A stretch of DNA of 64,000 nt from Hyphobacterium indicum (GTDB lineage Bacteria > Pseudomonadota > Alphaproteobacteria > Caulobacterales > Maricaulaceae): assembly GCF_003129605.1 (NCBI RefSeq), contig NZ_QBDX01000002.1, forward strand, positions 471,501 to 535,500. The letters run 5' to 3'. Below the pieces are notes generated by a model. It was not told where the DNA came from. It saw only the letters and a list, made by a program, of their open reading frames with translations, and did not search any database. Below are positions 3,909-13,573 of the stretch, piece after piece. A program made the position numbers and the translations under genes. Position 1 is the stretch's first letter, and each line of letters begins with the position of its first letter.

Positions 3909-4463
3909 TTAAAATATCCATTCTACAGGCAAATGACCATTGAAGTTATCATTGCCGACAGCCAACCTCAAAATTCTTTGATCTTGCTCAGGTGCTAAAG
4001 GAGTTAGTACACCATTTCTACTTATTGAAATACTATCAATAATGTATGAATCTTCAAAAATATGATATTGTACAGAATATAATATATTATTATTTATTAA
4101 TGCATTGCTGATCACACCCCCTCCGTCTAGGCTAGCACGACAGTTATGTAATATATCATATATTGAGTAATAAACACTTTCATATTGTTGCTGATTTGAT
4201 AATTCATCACAATTTCTTTGAAAAAAGAATTCAACTCCAGGGGCAACATTTAAATACGCGCTTCCAGCTGAGGTTGTGATCTCTATTACATTAACACTCG
4301 CGCTAATATTTAATGTCTGTGTTACATTATCCTCTAGACGAGCCTCAACAAAATCACCCACGGCGTAGAAGCATAAACGACTTGCATCATTCGAATAACA
4401 TATTGCTTCCTGATCGTTACCGCCTGCCAAAAACACTGTTGCTGATATTAGAAGTATATTCAT
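3909..4463 (-). CDS. Hypothetical protein, possible immunity protein of the RHS toxin tip
   Basis: A 184-aa protein I do not recognise. It starts with a short hydrophobic segment (NILLISATVFLAGG) that could be a signal peptide or anchor, with no lipobox cysteine, followed by a beta-rich body rich in Asn, Ser and Ile with several cysteines. Its ATG overlaps the stop of the RHS reading frame in an ATGA, so translation is probably coupled. Codon use and composition are strongly AT-rich, as in the RHS tip and unlike the rest of the window. In polymorphic toxin loci the gene directly after an RHS C-terminal toxin usually encodes its immunity protein. That role is inferred from position only. Confidence 0.55.
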   Translation of the reverse strand: MNILLISATVFLAGGNDQEAICYSNDASRLCFYAVGDFVEARLEDNVTQTLNISASVNVIEITTSAGSAYLNVAPGVEFFFQRNCDELSNQQQYESVYYSIYDILHNCRASLDGGGVISNALINNNILYSVQYHIFEDSYIIDSISISRNGVLTPLAPEQDQRILRLAVGNDNFNGHLPVEWIF

Positions 4464-5287
4464 TGTAAACTCAGAGGGTCAAAACTCTCAGGAATCCGCT
4501 CTAATGCGCGGAGGTACGGTATGCCTTCGTATGAATTTCCAATATACCCCTGTCGCTGAAGGAGCTCTATGGCATTAGTCTCTACCCTGTTTTCTAGCCT
4601 GGCGCTAATGTTTCGGTATGATGCGAGCGTTGCGGTGGACATTTCGCCAAACTGCTGTTGAATTCGCAATTGGCCTTCGAGTGATTTAAGTTGTCGAGAC
4701 ATTTCCAGTCCACGTAAAGTCCCATGGCCAACTTCATGAACTGTTGTTTCTGCGACCTCCTCTAAGGTTTCGAAAGCACTCTGACCAAAGGTACTTGGCC
4801 CCAGCGTAATGGATGATCCAATCGGAGAGTTTGGGTCTAGCGAAACTGAGTTCAGACCGCTTTGCACTTGGTTTGGGTCATAAGAAATGCTATTCGCGCT
4901 AGCCCACGACCGCTGTAGCTGTGAATCGCCCCCAGACTCAATCGCAATGCCGGCTGCCACAACTGCCGAATTGACAGTCTCTCTTTGCTCCTCAGGGAAT
5001 GACTCCAGCTCAAGGTAGTCTACAGTTGAACCGCCGCTTTCGCGCGAAATGACTGCGCACATCCCACTCGGATCCGTCATATTCAGCGGATCATTTCCGA
5101 CATAGGCATAGAGGTTGAACTGGTCAGCATAGAGCACCGGGTCTGTCTGGTAGAAGCGGCCGAGGGCGGGATCCTCCGGGTCTTGCCTTTGGCAATCCCG
5201 AGGGCAGGCTCCATAACGGGCGCGATAGTTGAAGAGGCCCCATTCGGCCTCCAGACGCCGCCCTCGAGCCGCGAGCGAAGGGCGCCC
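4460..5287 (-). pseudogene. Orphan RHS core end plus C-terminal toxin domain with HExxH motif
   Basis: The frame has no start codon with a ribosome site; a late GTG at 5137 would cut through the RHS core and is unlikely to be real. It begins just after the rhodanese stop codon, in the same frame. The first ~70 codons are the last part of an RHS repeat-associated core: LFNYRARY, DPALGRFYQTDPV, then DQFNLYAYVGNDPLN and the DPSG hinge after which variable toxins begin. The following ~200 residues are an AT-richer domain with TTVHEVGHGTLRGLE (4724-4738 codes for HEVGH), a zinc-metallopeptidase-type motif. The several-hundred-residue RHS shell and any secretion signal are absent, so it is either a displaced orphan tip or a remnant. 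The toxin domain itself is open and undamaged. Confidence 0.7.
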
Positions 5288-6698: not shown

Positions 6699-7244
6699 AT
6701 GTTGAAAAAAATCCTGGCCGGTGCCGGCCTGACCCTCACCATCGCCCTGTCGGCCTGCCAGACCGTGGCCGAACCGGTCACGCTCGCCTGCCGCGCCCCG
6801 ACGGGCGAGGAGTTCGAGATTTTCCGCGCCGTCGTCTCGCGCGACCGCGACACACTGATCCGCCTGTCGGCTGACGGGCCTGCCCGCGCTGCCATGCAAC
6901 GCCGCGATCCTTATGTCGCCGGACATCTCTGGGGCAATCAGGGCTATACCGGCGGTACGCTGGTGGGCGTTTTGACCCAGCCCCCGCCCTGCGTTATTGA
7001 TCTGCCGCGCCGCGTGGATGCTGAAGGCAATGTCATCGCCAGCCAGCGCTCGATCGCCGTCTATCAGGAAGATCGTTTCCGGGCGCTCACCGGCGGCAGC
7101 ATCACCTTCGCCCCGGAACAGGCCGTTCGTCTGCCCGGTGTAGCGCGGCAGGATTATTTCCGCTGTGACCTGGTCCAGACCGGTCAGGGCTGGCGCATGA
7201 GAGATCTTTGCGCCCTGCCGACCGTCGGTGGCGTCACCGGCTGA
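6699..7244 (+). CDS. Putative lipoprotein of unknown function
   Basis: A 181-aa protein starting with a lipoprotein signal: MLKKILAGAG, a hydrophobic core and the lipobox ALSAC (C20), so it is probably anchored in the periplasm or outer membrane. The mature part contains paired cysteines (TLACRAP, PPPCVIDL, YFRCDLVQ, RDLCALP), consistent with disulfides. I do not recognise a family. The ATG at 6699 has GGGGA just upstream and is preferred over earlier in-frame codons because it starts the signal peptide. The next gene, an M28 peptidase lipoprotein, begins 22 bases after its stop, so the two are probably co-transcribed. Confidence 0.75.
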   Translation: MLKKILAGAGLTLTIALSACQTVAEPVTLACRAPTGEEFEIFRAVVSRDRDTLIRLSADGPARAAMQRRDPYVAGHLWGNQGYTGGTLVGVLTQPPPCVIDLPRRVDAEGNVIASQRSIAVYQEDRFRALTGGSITFAPEQAVRLPGVARQDYFRCDLVQTGQGWRMRDLCALPTVGGVTG

Positions 7245-7266
7245 AACTGAAATCGGAGAAACCGTA

Positions 7267-9027
7267 ATGAAAACCCTTTATGTCGCATCCATCCTGGCTG
7301 CCTTCACGCTCGCCGCCTGTTCGGAGCCCGTCACGGATCCGGACGCGGATGCCACGGGCGAAGCCGTAACATCCGATGATATGTCTTCCGGGGACGCGGC
7401 CCAGCCCGAGCGCATTGATCCCAATGCCCGTCCGGCACCGCAGGAGACCAGCGCGGCGATCACCGGCGATGATCTGGCCTGGCGGATCCAGACGCTGGCG
7501 TCTGACGAATTCGAGGGCCGCGCGCCGGCAACGCCGGGCGGCATCATGGCCAGCCAGTGGATTGCCGACGAAATGGCCAGCGCGGGTCTGGAGCCCGGCG
7601 GCGAGGCCGGGACCTGGTTCCAGCGCGTCCCGCTGGTCGAAGCCACGCTGCAGACAACCGCGTCCAGCTTCGACATTTCCATCAATGGCGAGCCGATGGA
7701 CCTGACCTATCTGGAAGACGTGGTCTATGGCACGCGCCGCATCGAACCCGTGGTCGAGATCGAAAATTCCGATCTGGTTTTTGTCGGATACGGCATTGTC
7801 GCCCCGGAATATGGCTGGAATGATTATGAAGGTCTGGATGTGGAAGGCCGCACAGTGGTCATGCTGATCAATGATCCCGGCTTCGCCTCCGGCGATCCAG
7901 ATCTCTTCAATGGCAATGCCATGACCTATTATGGCCGCTGGACCTATAAGTACGAGGAAGCGGCCCGTCAGGGCGCTGAAGCCGTCATCATCATCCACGA
8001 AACCGAAGCTGCCAGCTATGGCTGGAACGTCGTCTCCGGATCCTGGTCTGGCCCGCAATTCGACCTGCAGCGCCCGGAAGGCTCGACACCCTTTGTCGGA
8101 TCCGAAAGCTGGATCACCAATGACCGCGCCCGCGAACTTTTCGCGGCAACGGGTCTTGATTTCGATGCTCTGGTTGAAGCTGCGCATCAACCCGGTTTTG
8201 AACCGGTTGAGATTCCCGGCGCAGAAGTGAACGCCACGCTGGTCACCAGCCACGAATTCCTCGATTCCCGGAATGTCGCCGGCATTGTCCGCGGCACGGA
8301 ACGTCCGGACGAATATGTGCTCTACATGGCGCACTGGGACCATATCGGCACGCGGCTGAGCGATGATCCCGAAGAAGACGTCATCTATAACGGCGCGGTG
8401 GACAACGCCACGGGAACAAGCTCGATTCTTGAAATCGGTCAGGCTTTTGCCGCCAATCCGCCGGAGCGTTCGGTCATCATCGTCGCCGTCACGGCCGAGG
8501 AGTCCGGCCTGCTGGGCTCTGAGTATTACGCGACCGATCCGCTGGTGCCCTTCTCGCAGACCGTAGGCGGCCTCAACATGGACGGCATGCTGCCCACCGG
8601 CCCGACCAGCGACATCGTGGTGATCGGCTATGGAGCCTCCGAGCTGGAGGACCATCTCGCCGCCGTCGCCGAAACCCAGAACCGGACATTGTCACCGGAT
8701 CCCAATCCGGAAGCCGGTTATTTCTACCGTTCGGATCACATTTCACTCGCAAAACGCGGCGTGCCGATGATCTACGCGGATACCGGTTCGGTAAATACCG
8801 AGCTCGGCGCCGGTCATGTCGAGGAGTTGAGCGCTGCCTATCGCGCAACGGCCTATCACGGTCCCGAAGACGAATTCAGTTATGACTGGGATTTCGACGG
8901 TCTCGCCCGCGACGCCACCCTGCTCTATCTTCTGGGTGAGCGCATCGCGAACAGCGAGGAATGGCCAAACTGGTATGAGGGCAATGAATTCCGCGCCCTG
9001 CGGGATGAACAGCGCTCCGCCGACTGA
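7267..9027 (+). CDS. Secreted lipoprotein M28-family zinc aminopeptidase
   Basis: 586 aa. The N-terminus is a lipoprotein signal with lipobox LAAC (C18), then a low-complexity Asp/Glu/Ala linker. The M28 peptidase fold carries the zinc ligands in order: YMAHWDHIG, VYNGAVDNATG-like region (YNGAVDNATGTSS), the catalytic TAEESGLLGSEYY, LNMDGM and SDHISLAKRG. Between the N-terminal part and the second half of the catalytic domain there is a PA-like insertion (about residues 170-330), as in many M28 enzymes. It probably trims peptides in the periplasm. Start at 7267 is set by GGAGAAACCGTA before the ATG and by the signal peptide. A terminator was not obvious before the convergent cupin gene, whose stop abuts it. 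Confidence 0.93.
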   Translation: MKTLYVASILAAFTLAACSEPVTDPDADATGEAVTSDDMSSGDAAQPERIDPNARPAPQETSAAITGDDLAWRIQTLASDEFEGRAPATPGGIMASQWIADEMASAGLEPGGEAGTWFQRVPLVEATLQTTASSFDISINGEPMDLTYLEDVVYGTRRIEPVVEIENSDLVFVGYGIVAPEYGWNDYEGLDVEGRTVVMLINDPGFASGDPDLFNGNAMTYYGRWTYKYEEAARQGAEAVIIIHETEAASYGWNVVSGSWSGPQFDLQRPEGSTPFVGSESWITNDRARELFAATGLDFDALVEAAHQPGFEPVEIPGAEVNATLVTSHEFLDSRNVAGIVRGTERPDEYVLYMAHWDHIGTRLSDDPEEDVIYNGAVDNATGTSSILEIGQAFAANPPERSVIIVAVTAEESGLLGSEYYATDPLVPFSQTVGGLNMDGMLPTGPTSDIVVIGYGASELEDHLAAVAETQNRTLSPDPNPEAGYFYRSDHISLAKRGVPMIYADTGSVNTELGAGHVEELSAAYRATAYHGPEDEFSYDWDFDGLARDATLLYLLGERIANSEEWPNWYEGNEFRALRDEQRSAD

Positions 9028-10215
9028 TCAGGCTGTGAAGAGGCATCGGAAGACCGGTGCCTCTTCCATCGCTTCGAATGCTTCGCCAACAAACTGGCTA
9101 TGCGCATCCAGCAAGGGCGCGCCCGCCGCCTGTGTGCGCATGGCGGCAATGGCATTCCGGACATCTCCGGTTAACGCCGCTTCACCCAAAGCCTGCACCA
9201 GATAATCCGGCGGCAATTCGCCCGCCTCATCATCGACAATCAGCGCCGACAAGACGCGTCCGGATTCGATAACAGGATCGGCAAAACCGGCAATTCGCAG
9301 GGTCTCGTTTAACTCACGGCGGCTTTCGCTGTGAAACAGGGCACAGATGAAGGTGCGGATTTTCGGATGATCATGCTCACCGAGCAATTCACGCGTCTTG
9401 TCACTGCGTTCGATGTCGTTCAGCGACGCCAGGATCAGCCCACCATCGGGCAGACGATTCAGGGTGGTTTCGATAACCGTTTCCGGGATCGGCAGGCTGT
9501 CGAAAGCGGCGGCATCCAGCAGGCGGATCAACCCGGCCTCGTCCAGCCCTTCCGCGAGGGCGGAGAATTTGTCCTCATACGCCGCCGGATCAACCTGTAA
9601 TGCCTGCGACAGGAGGTCGAGCTGCGCGGCGCTGGCATCCCTGCGGCGATGTGACGGGCTCCGCAGGCCGGGCCGCAGATATTCATACGCGCCCCTTGGC
9701 CCCTCACCCGCCACCCTCAGGCTGATGGCGAATCCGGGCTTTTCACAGTAAACAACGCTGTGTATGAGCGACCTTCCCTCTTCGACAGGCTGGATATGGC
9801 CGGGAGTGAACACGTCGAAGGTACGCCGCGACAATGTCCCGGCCGAAAATTCGTCAATCTCGCGTGCCGCTTCGAAATCATAAACCGAGTTGAAGGATTG
9901 GCCCTCCAGGACCTGAAATGCGCCTGTCCAGTCATGCTGGTGCAATCGGTCGGCGGCGTCACTCCACAGATGACCGACAATCCTGACATTGGTCCCGCTA
10001 AAAAGCGGAACCAGGCCGGGCTTCGATTGATCGCCCAGGCCCGCCAGATCTCCCGAAGCCGCTGCCTCCCAGACCTCTGCAAGCGACAAACGGTTGGGTA
10101 AGTCCCATTCATCAAGAAGTGCGGCGGCGATCTGCGGGAAAGCCGTTGGAGACTGCCCCACGCCCGCAAACCGTGCTTCGGCGTCAGCCCCGAGTCCGGC
10201 GAATAAAGTGCGCAC
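9028..10215 (-). CDS. Cysteine-dioxygenase-like cupin protein linked to a short peptide gene
   Basis: 395 aa, no signal peptide, so cytoplasmic. Residues ~85-170 look like a thiol-dioxygenase-type cupin: HQHDWTGAFQVLEG supplies the H-x-H pair (H92, H94), and IHSVVYCEKPGFAISLRV supplies a third histidine (H152), the arrangement of the three-histidine iron site of cysteine dioxygenase. The first ~80 and last ~200 residues are helical and unfamiliar to me. The GTG start at 10215 has GAGGAG five bases upstream. A hairpin terminator and then a 21-codon gene lie directly upstream on the same strand. Acting on that peptide is an attractive inference; acting on a free thiol is the alternative. Annotation as a known enzyme is not justified. 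Confidence 0.8.
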   Translation of the reverse strand: MRTLFAGLGADAEARFAGVGQSPTAFPQIAAALLDEWDLPNRLSLAEVWEAAASGDLAGLGDQSKPGLVPLFSGTNVRIVGHLWSDAADRLHQHDWTGAFQVLEGQSFNSVYDFEAAREIDEFSAGTLSRRTFDVFTPGHIQPVEEGRSLIHSVVYCEKPGFAISLRVAGEGPRGAYEYLRPGLRSPSHRRRDASAAQLDLLSQALQVDPAAYEDKFSALAEGLDEAGLIRLLDAAAFDSLPIPETVIETTLNRLPDGGLILASLNDIERSDKTRELLGEHDHPKIRTFICALFHSESRRELNETLRIAGFADPVIESGRVLSALIVDDEAGELPPDYLVQALGEAALTGDVRNAIAAMRTQAAGAPLLDAHSQFVGEAFEAMEEAPVFRCLFTA

Positions 10216-10230
10216 GGTGTCTCCTCAAAC

Positions 10231-10266
10231 AAAAACGCCCCGCAGCCGGGTGGAGACTGCGGGGCG
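10231..10266 (-). terminator. Rho-independent terminator between the peptide gene and the cupin gene
   Basis: On the minus strand the arms CGCCCCGCAG and CTGCGGGGCG (10257-10266 and 10236-10245) form a perfect 10-bp GC-rich stem with an 11-base loop, followed by TTTTT. It lies 16 bases before the cupin start. Partial read-through would give much more peptide transcript than cupin transcript, as is common when a substrate peptide precedes its modifying enzyme. An attenuation role is the other reading. Confidence 0.9.
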
Positions 10267-10281
10267 CTTGATAGAAAACCG

Positions 10282-10347
10282 TTAGTCCCAGTACAGAACG
10301 CGCTTGGCTTTCGGAGCGGACTTCCGCAGAGCTTTGATCTTCAACAT
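10282..10347 (-). CDS. 21-residue basic peptide, candidate precursor peptide
   Basis: A very short gene with excellent signals: GAGGAG lies 7 bases before the ATG at 10347 (a second in-frame ATG at 10353 is too close to the ribosome site), then 21 codons and TAA at 10282. The product begins MLKIKALRK, has a central SAPKAK and ends KRVLYWD: five Lys, two Arg and an aromatic-acidic tail. It is too small for a folded domain. A strong terminator follows, then the cysteine-dioxygenase-like cupin gene. The set-up resembles precursor peptides of ribosomally made modified peptides (leader-like basic part, YWD core), but a regulatory leader peptide or small antimicrobial is possible. No homolog is known to me. 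Confidence 0.65.
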   Translation of the reverse strand: MLKIKALRKSAPKAKRVLYWD

Positions 10348-10452
10348 ACTCATCTCCTCTTCTGAGTTGTACAGCCTTTCTGGCCGTTACAACCCATGTT
10401 TGAAGTGAGTCGCGGGCTGACGTAAACCTTTTGTTCAGAATGATTAAAAGCC

Positions 10453-12282
10453 TCAGGCAGCGGAGGCGCGTCCGGCCTTCTTCCGCTCGTGCTCCTTCAG
10501 CCAGCGTTTCCGGATCCGGATCGACTCCGGCGTCACTTCGACCAGCTCGTCATCATTGATGAATTCCAGAGCAAATTCTAGTGTCGTCCGGACCGGCGTG
10601 GTCAGAACCACGGCCTCGTCCGTACCGGCCGCCCGGATATTGGTCAGCTGCTTGCCCTTGGTCGGATTCACCGGCAGGTCATTATCGCGGCTGTGAATGC
10701 CGATGATCATGCCTTCATAGACTTCTGTGCCATGCCCGATGAAGAGCTTGCCGCGCTCCTGCAGGTTCCACAACGCATAGGCCAGCGCCTTGCCGTCCAC
10801 CATCGAGACCAGCGAGCCATTCCGGCGCTGACCGATCTCACCCGGCGCCCGGGGCGCATAATGGTCAAATGTGTGGAACATCAGACCGGCTCCCGACGTC
10901 GCCGTCAGGAAGTCTGACCGGAAGCCGATCAGGCCGCGGGTCGGGATTTCGTAATCAAGACGCACCCGGCCCTGCCCGTCCGGTGTCATGTTTTTCAGCT
11001 GGCCCTTGCGTTCGCCCAGCTTTTCCATGATCGCGCCCTGCGACTCTTCCGGAAGATCCACAACCAGCGTCTCCCATGGCTCGCACAGAACACCGTCGAT
11101 TTCCCTGGTCAGGACCTGGGGACGCGAAATGGCCAGCTCAAAGCCCTCGCGGCGCATATTCTCGATCAGCACCGAGAGATGCAATTCGCCACGGCCTGAA
11201 ACCTTGAACTTGTCAGCATCGTCAAGCTGTTGCACGCGCAGGGCTACATTATGGATCAGCTCACGCTGGAGACGTTCACCCAGATTGCGGCTGGTGACGT
11301 ATTTACCTTCCCGGCCCGCAAACGGGCTGTCATTGACCTGGAACGTCATGGCAATGGTCGGCTCATCCACCGTCAGCGGCGGCAATGCCTCCACCTGTTC
11401 GGGCGCACAAACCGTGTCCGAAATTTTCAGCGGATCGAGTCCGGTGAAGGTGATGATATCGCCCGCGCTCGCGCTGTTCATCTCGATGCGCTCCAGCCCG
11501 TGAAATCCGAACACCTGCTGGACTTTGCCGCGGCGCGTCTTGCCCTCCGCATCAATGACCATGACCGGCTGGTTCTTGGACAGTGTCCCTCGGCGGATCC
11601 GGCCAATGCCGATCACCCCGGTATAGCTGGAATAATCCAGCGCGCTGACCTGAAGCTGAAGCGGCCCGTTGAGATCGACAGGCGGCGGCGGTGTATGATC
11701 GACAATCATCTGGAAGAGTGGCGTCATGTCGGCGTCAGGGTTTTCGGCATCCAGGCCGGCAAACCCGTTCAGGGCCGACGCAAAAACAACCGGGAAATCC
11801 ATCTGTTCGTCATTGGCTCCGAGCCGGTCGAACAGATCAAAGGTCTGGTCGACCACCCAGTCGGGGCGTGCCCCCGGACGGTCGATCTTGTTGACGACAA
11901 CGATCGGGTTGAGTCCCCGTTCCAGAGCCTTGCGCGTCACAAAAGCGGTTTGTGGCATCGGTCCGTCGACAGCATCCACCAGCAGGAGCACCGAATCCGC
12001 CATAGACAGAACGCGCTCGACTTCACCACCGAAATCCGCGTGCCCGGGCGTATCAATGATGTTGATCCGCCAGTCCCGCCACGTCACAGCCGTGTTCTTC
12101 GCCAGAATCGTGATCCCGCGCTCTTTTTCGATATCGTTGGAATCCATCATCCGCTCGGTGGTTTCGACGCGGTCGCCGAAGGTTCCCGATTGTTTCAGGA
12201 GTTGATCGACGAGTGTGGTCTTGCCATGGTCGACATGCGCGACAATGGCGATATTACGCAGTTTTTCCGGTGCAACGGACAT
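10453..12282 (-). CDS. typA: Translational GTPase TypA/BipA
   Basis: 609 aa, the normal length for BipA, a ribosome-binding GTPase that helps 50S assembly and stress adaptation. The P-loop [10 protein letters not shown] is near residue 16, followed by the switch region [22 protein letters not shown], and [10 protein letters not shown]. Domain II and the C-terminal BipA-specific part ([31 protein letters not shown]) follow, with a basic tail. The ATG at 12282 is where family homology starts ([18 protein letters not shown]); the open frame continues upstream to 12447 without family similarity. The ribosome site is weak. It ends about 100 bases upstream of the short-peptide gene on the same strand. 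Confidence 0.97.
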
Positions 12283-12373
12283 GGGCAGAACTCGAAAAGG
12301 GCCAGAGGGATTGCGCGCGCCTCTTAGCCTTGTCCTGCCCGCCCGGCTACCCCCAAAAACGCAAAGCCGCTCG

Positions 12374-13573
12374 TCAAACGCCTGCCAGATGGCCGCCCGA
12401 GCGGAGCTGGGTCCGGGTCCGGCGTCTTTGCCAGCGATAGATCGCAAGAATGATCGCCTGGGTGAAGACCCCCAGGAAGGAAAAGGCGAAGATCAATGCC
12501 GCCACCTGCGAAGCACGCGCATGAATCAACCAGGCCGGACGCGTGATAACAAAATACCAACCCGGTGTTTCGATACGCGCAAAGGCAACCAGCCGTCCAT
12601 CATCGGTCTGGAACACGCCCGAATCGCGCCCTGAATTGCGTATGGCTTCGGCAATCGGCCTAGGATGGGCGATCGATTCCGCAGCAGTCACCGCTTCCGG
12701 CGTCAGGACATCCTGGAACAGCAAGGCCTGGTGCGCGATCAGGCTGCCATCCCGCGTCATGATCATGTTGCTGGCATTAACCTCGGCGTCGATGATGGCA
12801 TTGGCCAGATAATTCTGCATAGAGATCGTGATCCCGAACGCGCCCATATGACGTCCCGAAACCCGGACCGGGAAATGGCAGCCGGTGGTCAGTGCAACGC
12901 CATCACGCACATAAAGCAGGCGCGACAATTGCGTACAGCGCGTCACCCCCATGGGGTTATTGGCGGGAGATACGATCCGGGCGAGATCTTCCGACTGGAA
13001 ATCAAAATCAGCCGGCGCATCGCGGCGGTAGAATTCCAGGCGATCATCGCGCTGCGGCGCATAGATGATCAGATCATTGTCCGGCGTCACGAAATTCAGA
13101 TTGTCGAAATGCCCGGCATTGGCTTCGCCATGCTGACGCACTGTATGATAGGCGGCAATCAGGCGCCGTTGACGCTCCGGTGAAACAACTGCATCCGATA
13201 TGAAGGCACCGACACCATAGACATAATCACCGTCCTCATCGCGATATCCATCAAACAATTCTGGCCGCGAACGGCGGGTGCCATCACCAAATTCCGGAAA
13301 CAACCAGTTGAATTCGGCAGAAACATCCAGCCCCTCCATCGCAGCCAGCCGCCGCGCGAAGCTGCGCCCCGTGGCGTATTCAATGGCCTGCACATCGGAA
13401 AACAGGGCTCGCTGGCGATTGGCGCGCTCCTCGATATGCAGAGCGCTGCTCTCCATCACCTTGCGCTCGAAATAGGGCTCAAGGCTTATATATCCGGCAA
13501 TGGCAGCAAATGACGCGATAAAGACCGCGACAAGAAATGTCATTCCCGCTGATTTCCAGTTGATCCGGTTCAT
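12374..13573 (-). CDS. Membrane protein with Cache-like periplasmic sensor domain and no output domain
   Basis: 399 aa. A transmembrane helix near residues 10-30 (FLVAVFIASFAAIAGYIS) is followed by a ~320-residue periplasmic region. A second helix near residues 350-375 (ALIFAFSFLGVFTQAIILAIY) leads to a ~25-residue basic tail. The periplasmic part has the look of a double Cache ligand-binding domain (helical start with ERANRQRALF, FGDGTRRSRPELFDGYRD, VSGRHMGAFGITISMQNYLA, GWYFVITRP). No HAMP, kinase, GGDEF, EAL or MCP domain follows, so it lacks an output module. The ATG at 13573 was chosen because it starts the first helix. Ligand and partner are not visible. Confidence 0.7.
   Translation of the reverse strand: MNRINWKSAGMTFLVAVFIASFAAIAGYISLEPYFERKVMESSALHIEERANRQRALFSDVQAIEYATGRSFARRLAAMEGLDVSAEFNWLFPEFGDGTRRSRPELFDGYRDEDGDYVYGVGAFISDAVVSPERQRRLIAAYHTVRQHGEANAGHFDNLNFVTPDNDLIIYAPQRDDRLEFYRRDAPADFDFQSEDLARIVSPANNPMGVTRCTQLSRLLYVRDGVALTTGCHFPVRVSGRHMGAFGITISMQNYLANAIIDAEVNASNMIMTRDGSLIAHQALLFQDVLTPEAVTAAESIAHPRPIAEAIRNSGRDSGVFQTDDGRLVAFARIETPGWYFVITRPAWLIHARASQVAALIFAFSFLGVFTQAIILAIYRWQRRRTRTQLRSGGHLAGV

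Follow-up and report, generated by a model that had tools for sequence, protein, structure and literature searches.

The window (the 64,000-nucleotide stretch of Hyphobacterium indicum DNA analyzed here, from a genome of 2.79 Mb) contains a compact minus-strand series in which a 21-codon open reading frame (ORF) is followed by a strong intrinsic terminator and then by a 395-residue cupin ORF. The typA/BipA gene (10453-12447, minus strand) comes before this series in the order of transcription. A candidate precursor peptide, MLKIKALRKSAPKAKRVLYWD, is encoded together with its stop codon at 10282-10347; a predicted stem-loop in the 5' UTR (10348-10410) encloses the Shine-Dalgarno (SD) sequence of the gene, with some of its inner pairs kept through changes on both sides; the terminator separating the two genes lies at 10233-10269; and the gene at 9028-10215, which starts with GTG, encodes a cupin resembling cysteine dioxygenase (CDO) with a helical C-terminal domain, a candidate peptide-modifying enzyme. 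All of these are on the minus strand. A plus-strand gene (7228-9027) encodes an M28 peptidase (PF04389) and is convergent with the cupin gene, the two ends lying one base apart. A search of the window with Rfam found only a tRNA, and a promoter scan of positions 9900-10700 found no sigma-70-like site, including ahead of the peptide, a result that favors neither side in the interpretations weighed below. Elsewhere in the window, an ORF at 4460-5137 (minus strand) opens with LYADQFNLYAYVGNDPLNMTDPSG, which we take to be a Rhs-core-like motif, contains HEVGHG in its C-terminal part and has no Pfam match; a second small ORF (3909-4463, minus strand) overlaps it, and together the two resemble an orphan Rhs tip and its partner. 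Genes for a Rhodanese protein (PF00581; 5288-5740, minus strand) and a metallo-beta-lactamase-fold protein (PF00753; 5724-6587, plus strand) have overlapping 5' ends when the starts are taken as listed, and their combination suggests a role in sulfur or persulfide handling.

The original prediction described a 21-codon gene with a strong ribosome-binding site, and the ORF at 10347-10282 (minus strand) fits that description, being preceded by the SD sequence AGAGGAG. An alternative in-frame ATG at 10353, six bases upstream, touches the SD sequence and is missing from two of the five genomes that carry the gene (G004 and G006), so 10347 is the better start. Conservation of the peptide at the amino acid level, on which the prediction depended, was found in the codon changes among four distinct Hyphobacterium lineages: 11 are synonymous and 3 non-synonymous, whereas only 24-31% of changes would be expected to be synonymous (P of 3.2e-5 and 3.0e-4). 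Peptide identity stays at 90-100% where that of the cupin drops to 59%. Residues 7-21, LRKSAPKAKRVLYWD, are identical in all five genomes, two of which (G006 and G007) have one further residue, Asn, at the end, so that the peptide ends in YWDN there and in YWD otherwise. From this pattern of substitution, the peptide is real and under selection at the protein level. The Hyphobacterium peptide is also strongly basic and nearly invariant, and it has no Cys, no variable core and no visible division into leader and core; this uniformity counts against the reading in which it is the substrate of a modifying enzyme. The same basic character and near invariance fit the idea of a finished small protein, such as a signal or a basic peptide that binds membranes or nucleic acids, with the cupin serving as its immunity protein, sensor or partner and carrying out no modification. 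Cupins are known from general background to act as sensors, although other properties of the cupin family, described below, make this explanation improbable.

Selection on the protein does not by itself explain the conservation of the peptide gene, and the RNA probably also matters, which need not exclude a role for the peptide as a substrate. Four-fold degenerate sites are unchanged at 78-90% in the peptide gene versus 32-49% in the cupin gene when G000 is compared with G004, G006 and G007 (Fisher P 0.0056 to 0.039 in the four pairs tested, which are not independent of one another; three of the values lie below 0.012). The same-codon test was weaker, with P from 0.004 to 0.20 over five pairs, the highest value being that of G007 with G004. 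The terminator (10269-10233) was present as originally predicted and is stronger than the 10-bp stem claimed for it, with 15 pairs, a folding z of -6.0 and a loop, TCCACCC, that is identical in five of five genomes. When 60 genomes were searched for the 31-base terminator element with up to 3 mismatches allowed, it occurred once in each of the five genomes with the cupin and in none of the other 55. Assignment of the terminator to typA was rejected because G001 and G003 have typA without it, and it was also ruled out by this confinement of the element to the cupin genomes.

These features bear on the main rival to the substrate reading, attenuation, in which the 21-codon ORF would encode a leader peptide with a regulatory role. 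The 5' hairpin that covers the SD sequence would control translation of the ORF, and translation in turn would determine whether the terminator can form and thereby whether the cupin gene is transcribed; CTG CGG of the ORF can pair as an antiterminator with the terminator 5' arm, CCGCAG. The position of the terminator between the ORF and the cupin, its invariant loop and the unusual conservation of four-fold sites all agree with such a switch. In predictions for the nascent RNA before synthesis of the terminator 3' arm, CTGCGG pairs with the 5' arm in four of five genomes (three of four distinct sequences), and the fold predicted from the alignment includes five pairs that survive changes on both sides. 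However, the antiterminator pairing is absent in G007, a 6-bp match could easily be due to chance in GC-rich DNA (a judgment rather than a computed value), and covariation contributes little to the alignment fold (a term of -0.92). Conservation extends over the full peptide rather than a stall motif alone, and the peptide end shifts by one residue in two of five genomes. The upstream ORF of a distant homolog (G094, below) moreover has an internal repeat under selection, which is unexpected for an attenuator. RNA-level regulation is a serious consideration, but we judge attenuation on the whole unlikely.

The cupin protein conforms to its predicted description, a 395-residue protein with H92, H94 and H152 in a CDO-like context followed by about 200 unfamiliar C-terminal residues. 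Searches with Pfam, NCBIfam, PADLOC and PHROGs yielded sub-threshold rows only (including TIGR00125 at E 0.098, GCD14 at 0.083 and a CARF model at 0.042), with no Pfam family at E 1; sequence searches of the PDB found no match, and the CDO_I profile matched none of 60 genomes, the source genome included. An AlphaFold2 model built from seven sequences (mean pLDDT 67) contains a β-barrel at residues 68-168 (9712-10014, minus strand), which holds the three histidines, and a helical C-terminal half. The top Foldseek matches of this model were cysteine, mercaptopropionate, ergothioneine and cysteamine dioxygenases; hydroquinone dioxygenases ranked lower, and thiol dioxygenase structures made up most of the best 50 of 721 matches (best E 4.2e-4; 8 matches at E ≤ 0.001). 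A viral fold library gave one match at E ≤ 0.001, an unnamed one among the cupin-like entries. In an alignment with human CDO and three bacterial homologs from a plasmid collection, H92, H94 and H152 align with the CDO iron ligands H86, H88 and H140. The modeled cupin fold and a putative iron site of three histidines are thus those of the CDO family. These histidines are invariant in seven of seven homologs, which argues against a finished small protein whose cupin partner does no chemistry.

Other hallmarks of CDO are missing from the sequence. CDO residues R60, C93, H155 and Y157 have no match in the cupin, and Y58 is also not kept; Y58, R60, H155 and Y157 are invariant in the four aligned CDOs, whereas C93 is not. 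The position of H155 is occupied by Arg in all seven cupin homologs. Profile comparison with CDO was weak (probability 33, E 4.6e-4, 58 columns), and this result, together with the modest confidence of the full-length model, counts against the substrate reading. Thiol dioxygenases (CDO, ADO and PCO) are known for small thiols and N-terminal Cys as substrates, but the absence of the CDO substrate residues argues against free cysteine as the substrate here. The same findings weigh on the possibility that the two genes are unrelated neighbors, the cupin oxidizing a small molecule while the peptide has a separate role. That CDO-fold enzymes in general mostly act on small thiols would suit this explanation, as would the terminator that separates the genes. 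The loss of the CDO second-sphere residues speaks against it, as do the repetition of the layout in G094 and the shared presence and absence of peptide, terminator and cupin, though the latter amounts to one event. We consider it the least probable of the explanations weighed here.

The C-terminal domain (residues 190-395; 9031-9648, minus strand) was modeled in isolation with a pLDDT of 83 as an all-helical structure of 13 helices, and it had no fold match in the PDB at E 1 or better (best E 1.3). As modeled, such a domain could bind a protein, which would suit a partner of a finished small protein as well as an enzyme with a peptide substrate. Within Hyphobacterium it is the better-kept half of the protein (66-96% identity versus 62-96% for the whole). 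In the two distant homologs, G094 and G516, it is instead less conserved, at 21% and 17% versus 26% and 22% for the whole protein, which leaves a leader-binding role shared across the family unproven.

The peptide (E < 1e-7) and the cupin were found in the same five of eight Hyphobacterium genomes (G000 and G004-G007), and the peptide in none of the three without the cupin. In two of these three, G001 and G003, the interval between typA and the M28 peptidase gene contains no peptide, terminator or cupin and is occupied instead by a gene of the glyoxalase family (PF00903, 1.7e-10 and 1.2e-15) on the opposite strand; the comparison covers these two genomes, and the interval after typA in G002 lies outside it. 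The C-terminus of TypA is 91-99% identical in pairs among the five cupin genomes, and those of G001 and G003 are 85-86% identical to that of G000 over 352-359 residues. Because the five genomes form one clade, the co-occurrence represents one gain or loss and not five; with that qualification, a candidate modifying enzyme is found both beside and together with its candidate precursor. Ten other relatives gave weak matches to the peptide (E 0.08 to 3.9; 8 of the 10 on the minus strand), which were rejected as homologs, and a scan of both strands at these ten loci, a test of the ending only, found an aromatic-aromatic-acidic-stop ending in none.

Beyond these genomes the cupin family appears to be rare. 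It was present in 7 of 398 genomes sampled from the order, namely the five Hyphobacterium genomes, G094 and G516, and in 1 of 385 from the class and 1 of 398 from the phylum, in both cases the source genome only. Samples around the distant homologs gave 1 of 105 genomes for the family of G516, 1 of 29 for its genus and 1 of 28 for the genus of G094. These wider samples were drawn from a larger pool with only first-look candidates scored, so the family may be more widespread. The cupin had no tblastn match among plasmids or phages, and the peptides had no match among plasmids. Among viral contigs, 12 pattern matches for the cupin included no relative, and 89 pattern matches among genome contigs contained three loci, those of G004, G005 and G006 again.

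The M28 peptidase was also considered as a member of the unit and rejected, since relatives of it are present in nine of nine searched genomes without the cupin; in G001 and G003 its gene adjoins typA. The original prediction had stated that no protease lies alongside. This does not hold, given a peptidase gene that ends one base from the cupin; judging from its distribution, the peptidase probably lies outside the peptide-cupin unit. An exporter or a protease gene dedicated to the Hyphobacterium unit is not known, the window offering only this peptidase, and that counts against the substrate reading.

The two distant homologs lie near peptide genes of their own. Directly upstream of the G094 homolog (about 25-26% identical) is a 44-residue ORF, MINLVSLLFSGSTNVGSTSFEYADSAQSCDFAAPQVGSTSFEYA, with the SD sequence GGAGG. 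It contains VGSTSFEYA twice, as a core-like repeat, and the copies differ at six nucleotides, all six of them synonymous (chance 3e-5 under uniform and 1.2e-4 under transition-biased substitution). With the 11:3 ratio in Hyphobacterium, this indicates that in both settings the short candidate precursor gene is genuine and selected as protein. An 11-bp hairpin, followed by a weak T-tract, lies between the 44-residue ORF and the cupin gene, so by gene order G094 has the same layout as Hyphobacterium with an unrelated peptide. A divergent ABC transporter adjoins the G094 cupin homolog; at this locus (L039 12436-13578) a D-serine dehydratase-like gene lies beyond the transporter. The G516 homolog (22% identical) is convergent with, and 62 bp from, a gene for a RamC-like lanthipeptide synthetase (PF25816 2.6e-40, LANC_like 1.5e-21, Pkinase). 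Ahead of the synthetase gene is a 77-residue ORF ending in SSSSCSC, whose sole Pfam row, FliG_C, is below the cut-off and which, by eye only, is likely a class III lanthipeptide precursor. No short ORF with an SD sequence was seen just before the G516 cupin, and the lanthipeptide genes are on the opposite strand; both facts count against the substrate reading. This lanthipeptide-like cluster (L040 1971-8147, same order) adjoins a 1002-residue frame with a sub-threshold match to family B DNA polymerase (E 0.0026), perhaps a mobile element.

An upstream short frame, sought beside each homolog as the original prediction proposed, was therefore found in the five Hyphobacterium genomes and in G094 but not in G516. 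The companion proposal of YWD as the target throughout the family is not supported: that ending occurs in a single clade within a single genus, where two members have YWDN, and the G094 peptide ends in FEYA. A looser theme, our own observation from the sequences, may be the placing of aromatic beside acidic residues (YWD, FEY and LDYIE). That the distant homologs sit near quite different peptides, one of them in a lanthipeptide cluster, is a further difficulty for the finished-small-protein explanation. Together with the Hyphobacterium pair, these associations suggest, but do not prove, that the cupin chemically modifies nearby small peptides.

Collectively, the evidence favors a RiPP-like system of peptide modification that involves a new enzyme family. 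The specific reading, in which the adjacent cupin acts on the 21-residue peptide as its substrate, is one that we hold with even confidence for and against. The basic N-terminal two thirds of the peptide would act as a leader bound by the helical C-terminal domain, and the aromatic and acidic tail (YWD or YWDN) would be presented to the three-histidine iron center, where the CDO-type cupin would oxidize it using O2 to give the presumed product. The terminator would allow much peptide to be made per enzyme, the cupin being produced by read-through. A broader claim, to which we give somewhat less credence, is that of an undescribed RiPP-type class whose only tailoring enzyme is a cupin of the thiol dioxygenase fold, repurposed through loss of the cysteine-binding residues and fusion to a new helical domain for peptide binding. 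This cupin would oxidize motifs of aromatic and acidic residues (YWD, FEY) in tiny precursors, of which one has tandem cores. If the substrate reading is right, the thiol dioxygenase fold is added to those used in RiPP tailoring, and a system of only two genes would make immediate reconstitution feasible, with a 21-residue encoded substrate for probing an iron cupin that lacks the CDO Arg, His and Tyr residues. If attenuation is right instead, the locus is an alphaproteobacterial switch in which a leader peptide controls an orphan oxygenase.

A full-text literature search, with subscription papers mostly outside its coverage, found no description of the peptide-cupin pair. A Nif11 domain/cupin is mentioned in passing in one paper (PMC10783134). 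The one close parallel in the literature searched is PbsQ, a cupin/JmjC-like RiPP hydroxylase of biphenomycin-like pathways that hydroxylates Orn of a ribosomal precursor (PMC12257519). As proposed for the window cupin, PbsQ is an oxygenase of the cupin fold whose substrate is a ribosomal precursor peptide, but it is JmjC-related and belongs to a multi-enzyme cluster in which an MNIO and an arginase act before it (PMC12257519). Leader-peptide attenuators of the TnaC and peTrpL type share with the locus a short conserved ORF that is separated from the next gene by an intrinsic terminator; they differ in that the antiterminator here is predicted in four of five genomes only and the G094 peptide bears a repeat. 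Class III lanthipeptide clusters (RamC/LanKC) resemble the G516 locus, with its nearby synthetase and candidate precursor, whereas no such synthetase occurs among the neighboring genes examined in the window. Thiol dioxygenases (CDO, MDO and ADO/PCO; CDO_I, PF05995) share with the window cupin the predicted fold and the three His positions, and differ from it in several respects: the cupin sequence is not credibly matched in Pfam, NCBIfam or the PDB, does not keep R60, C93, H155 and Y157, carries an extra helical domain of 200 residues, and in Hyphobacterium is paired with a peptide that contains no Cys.
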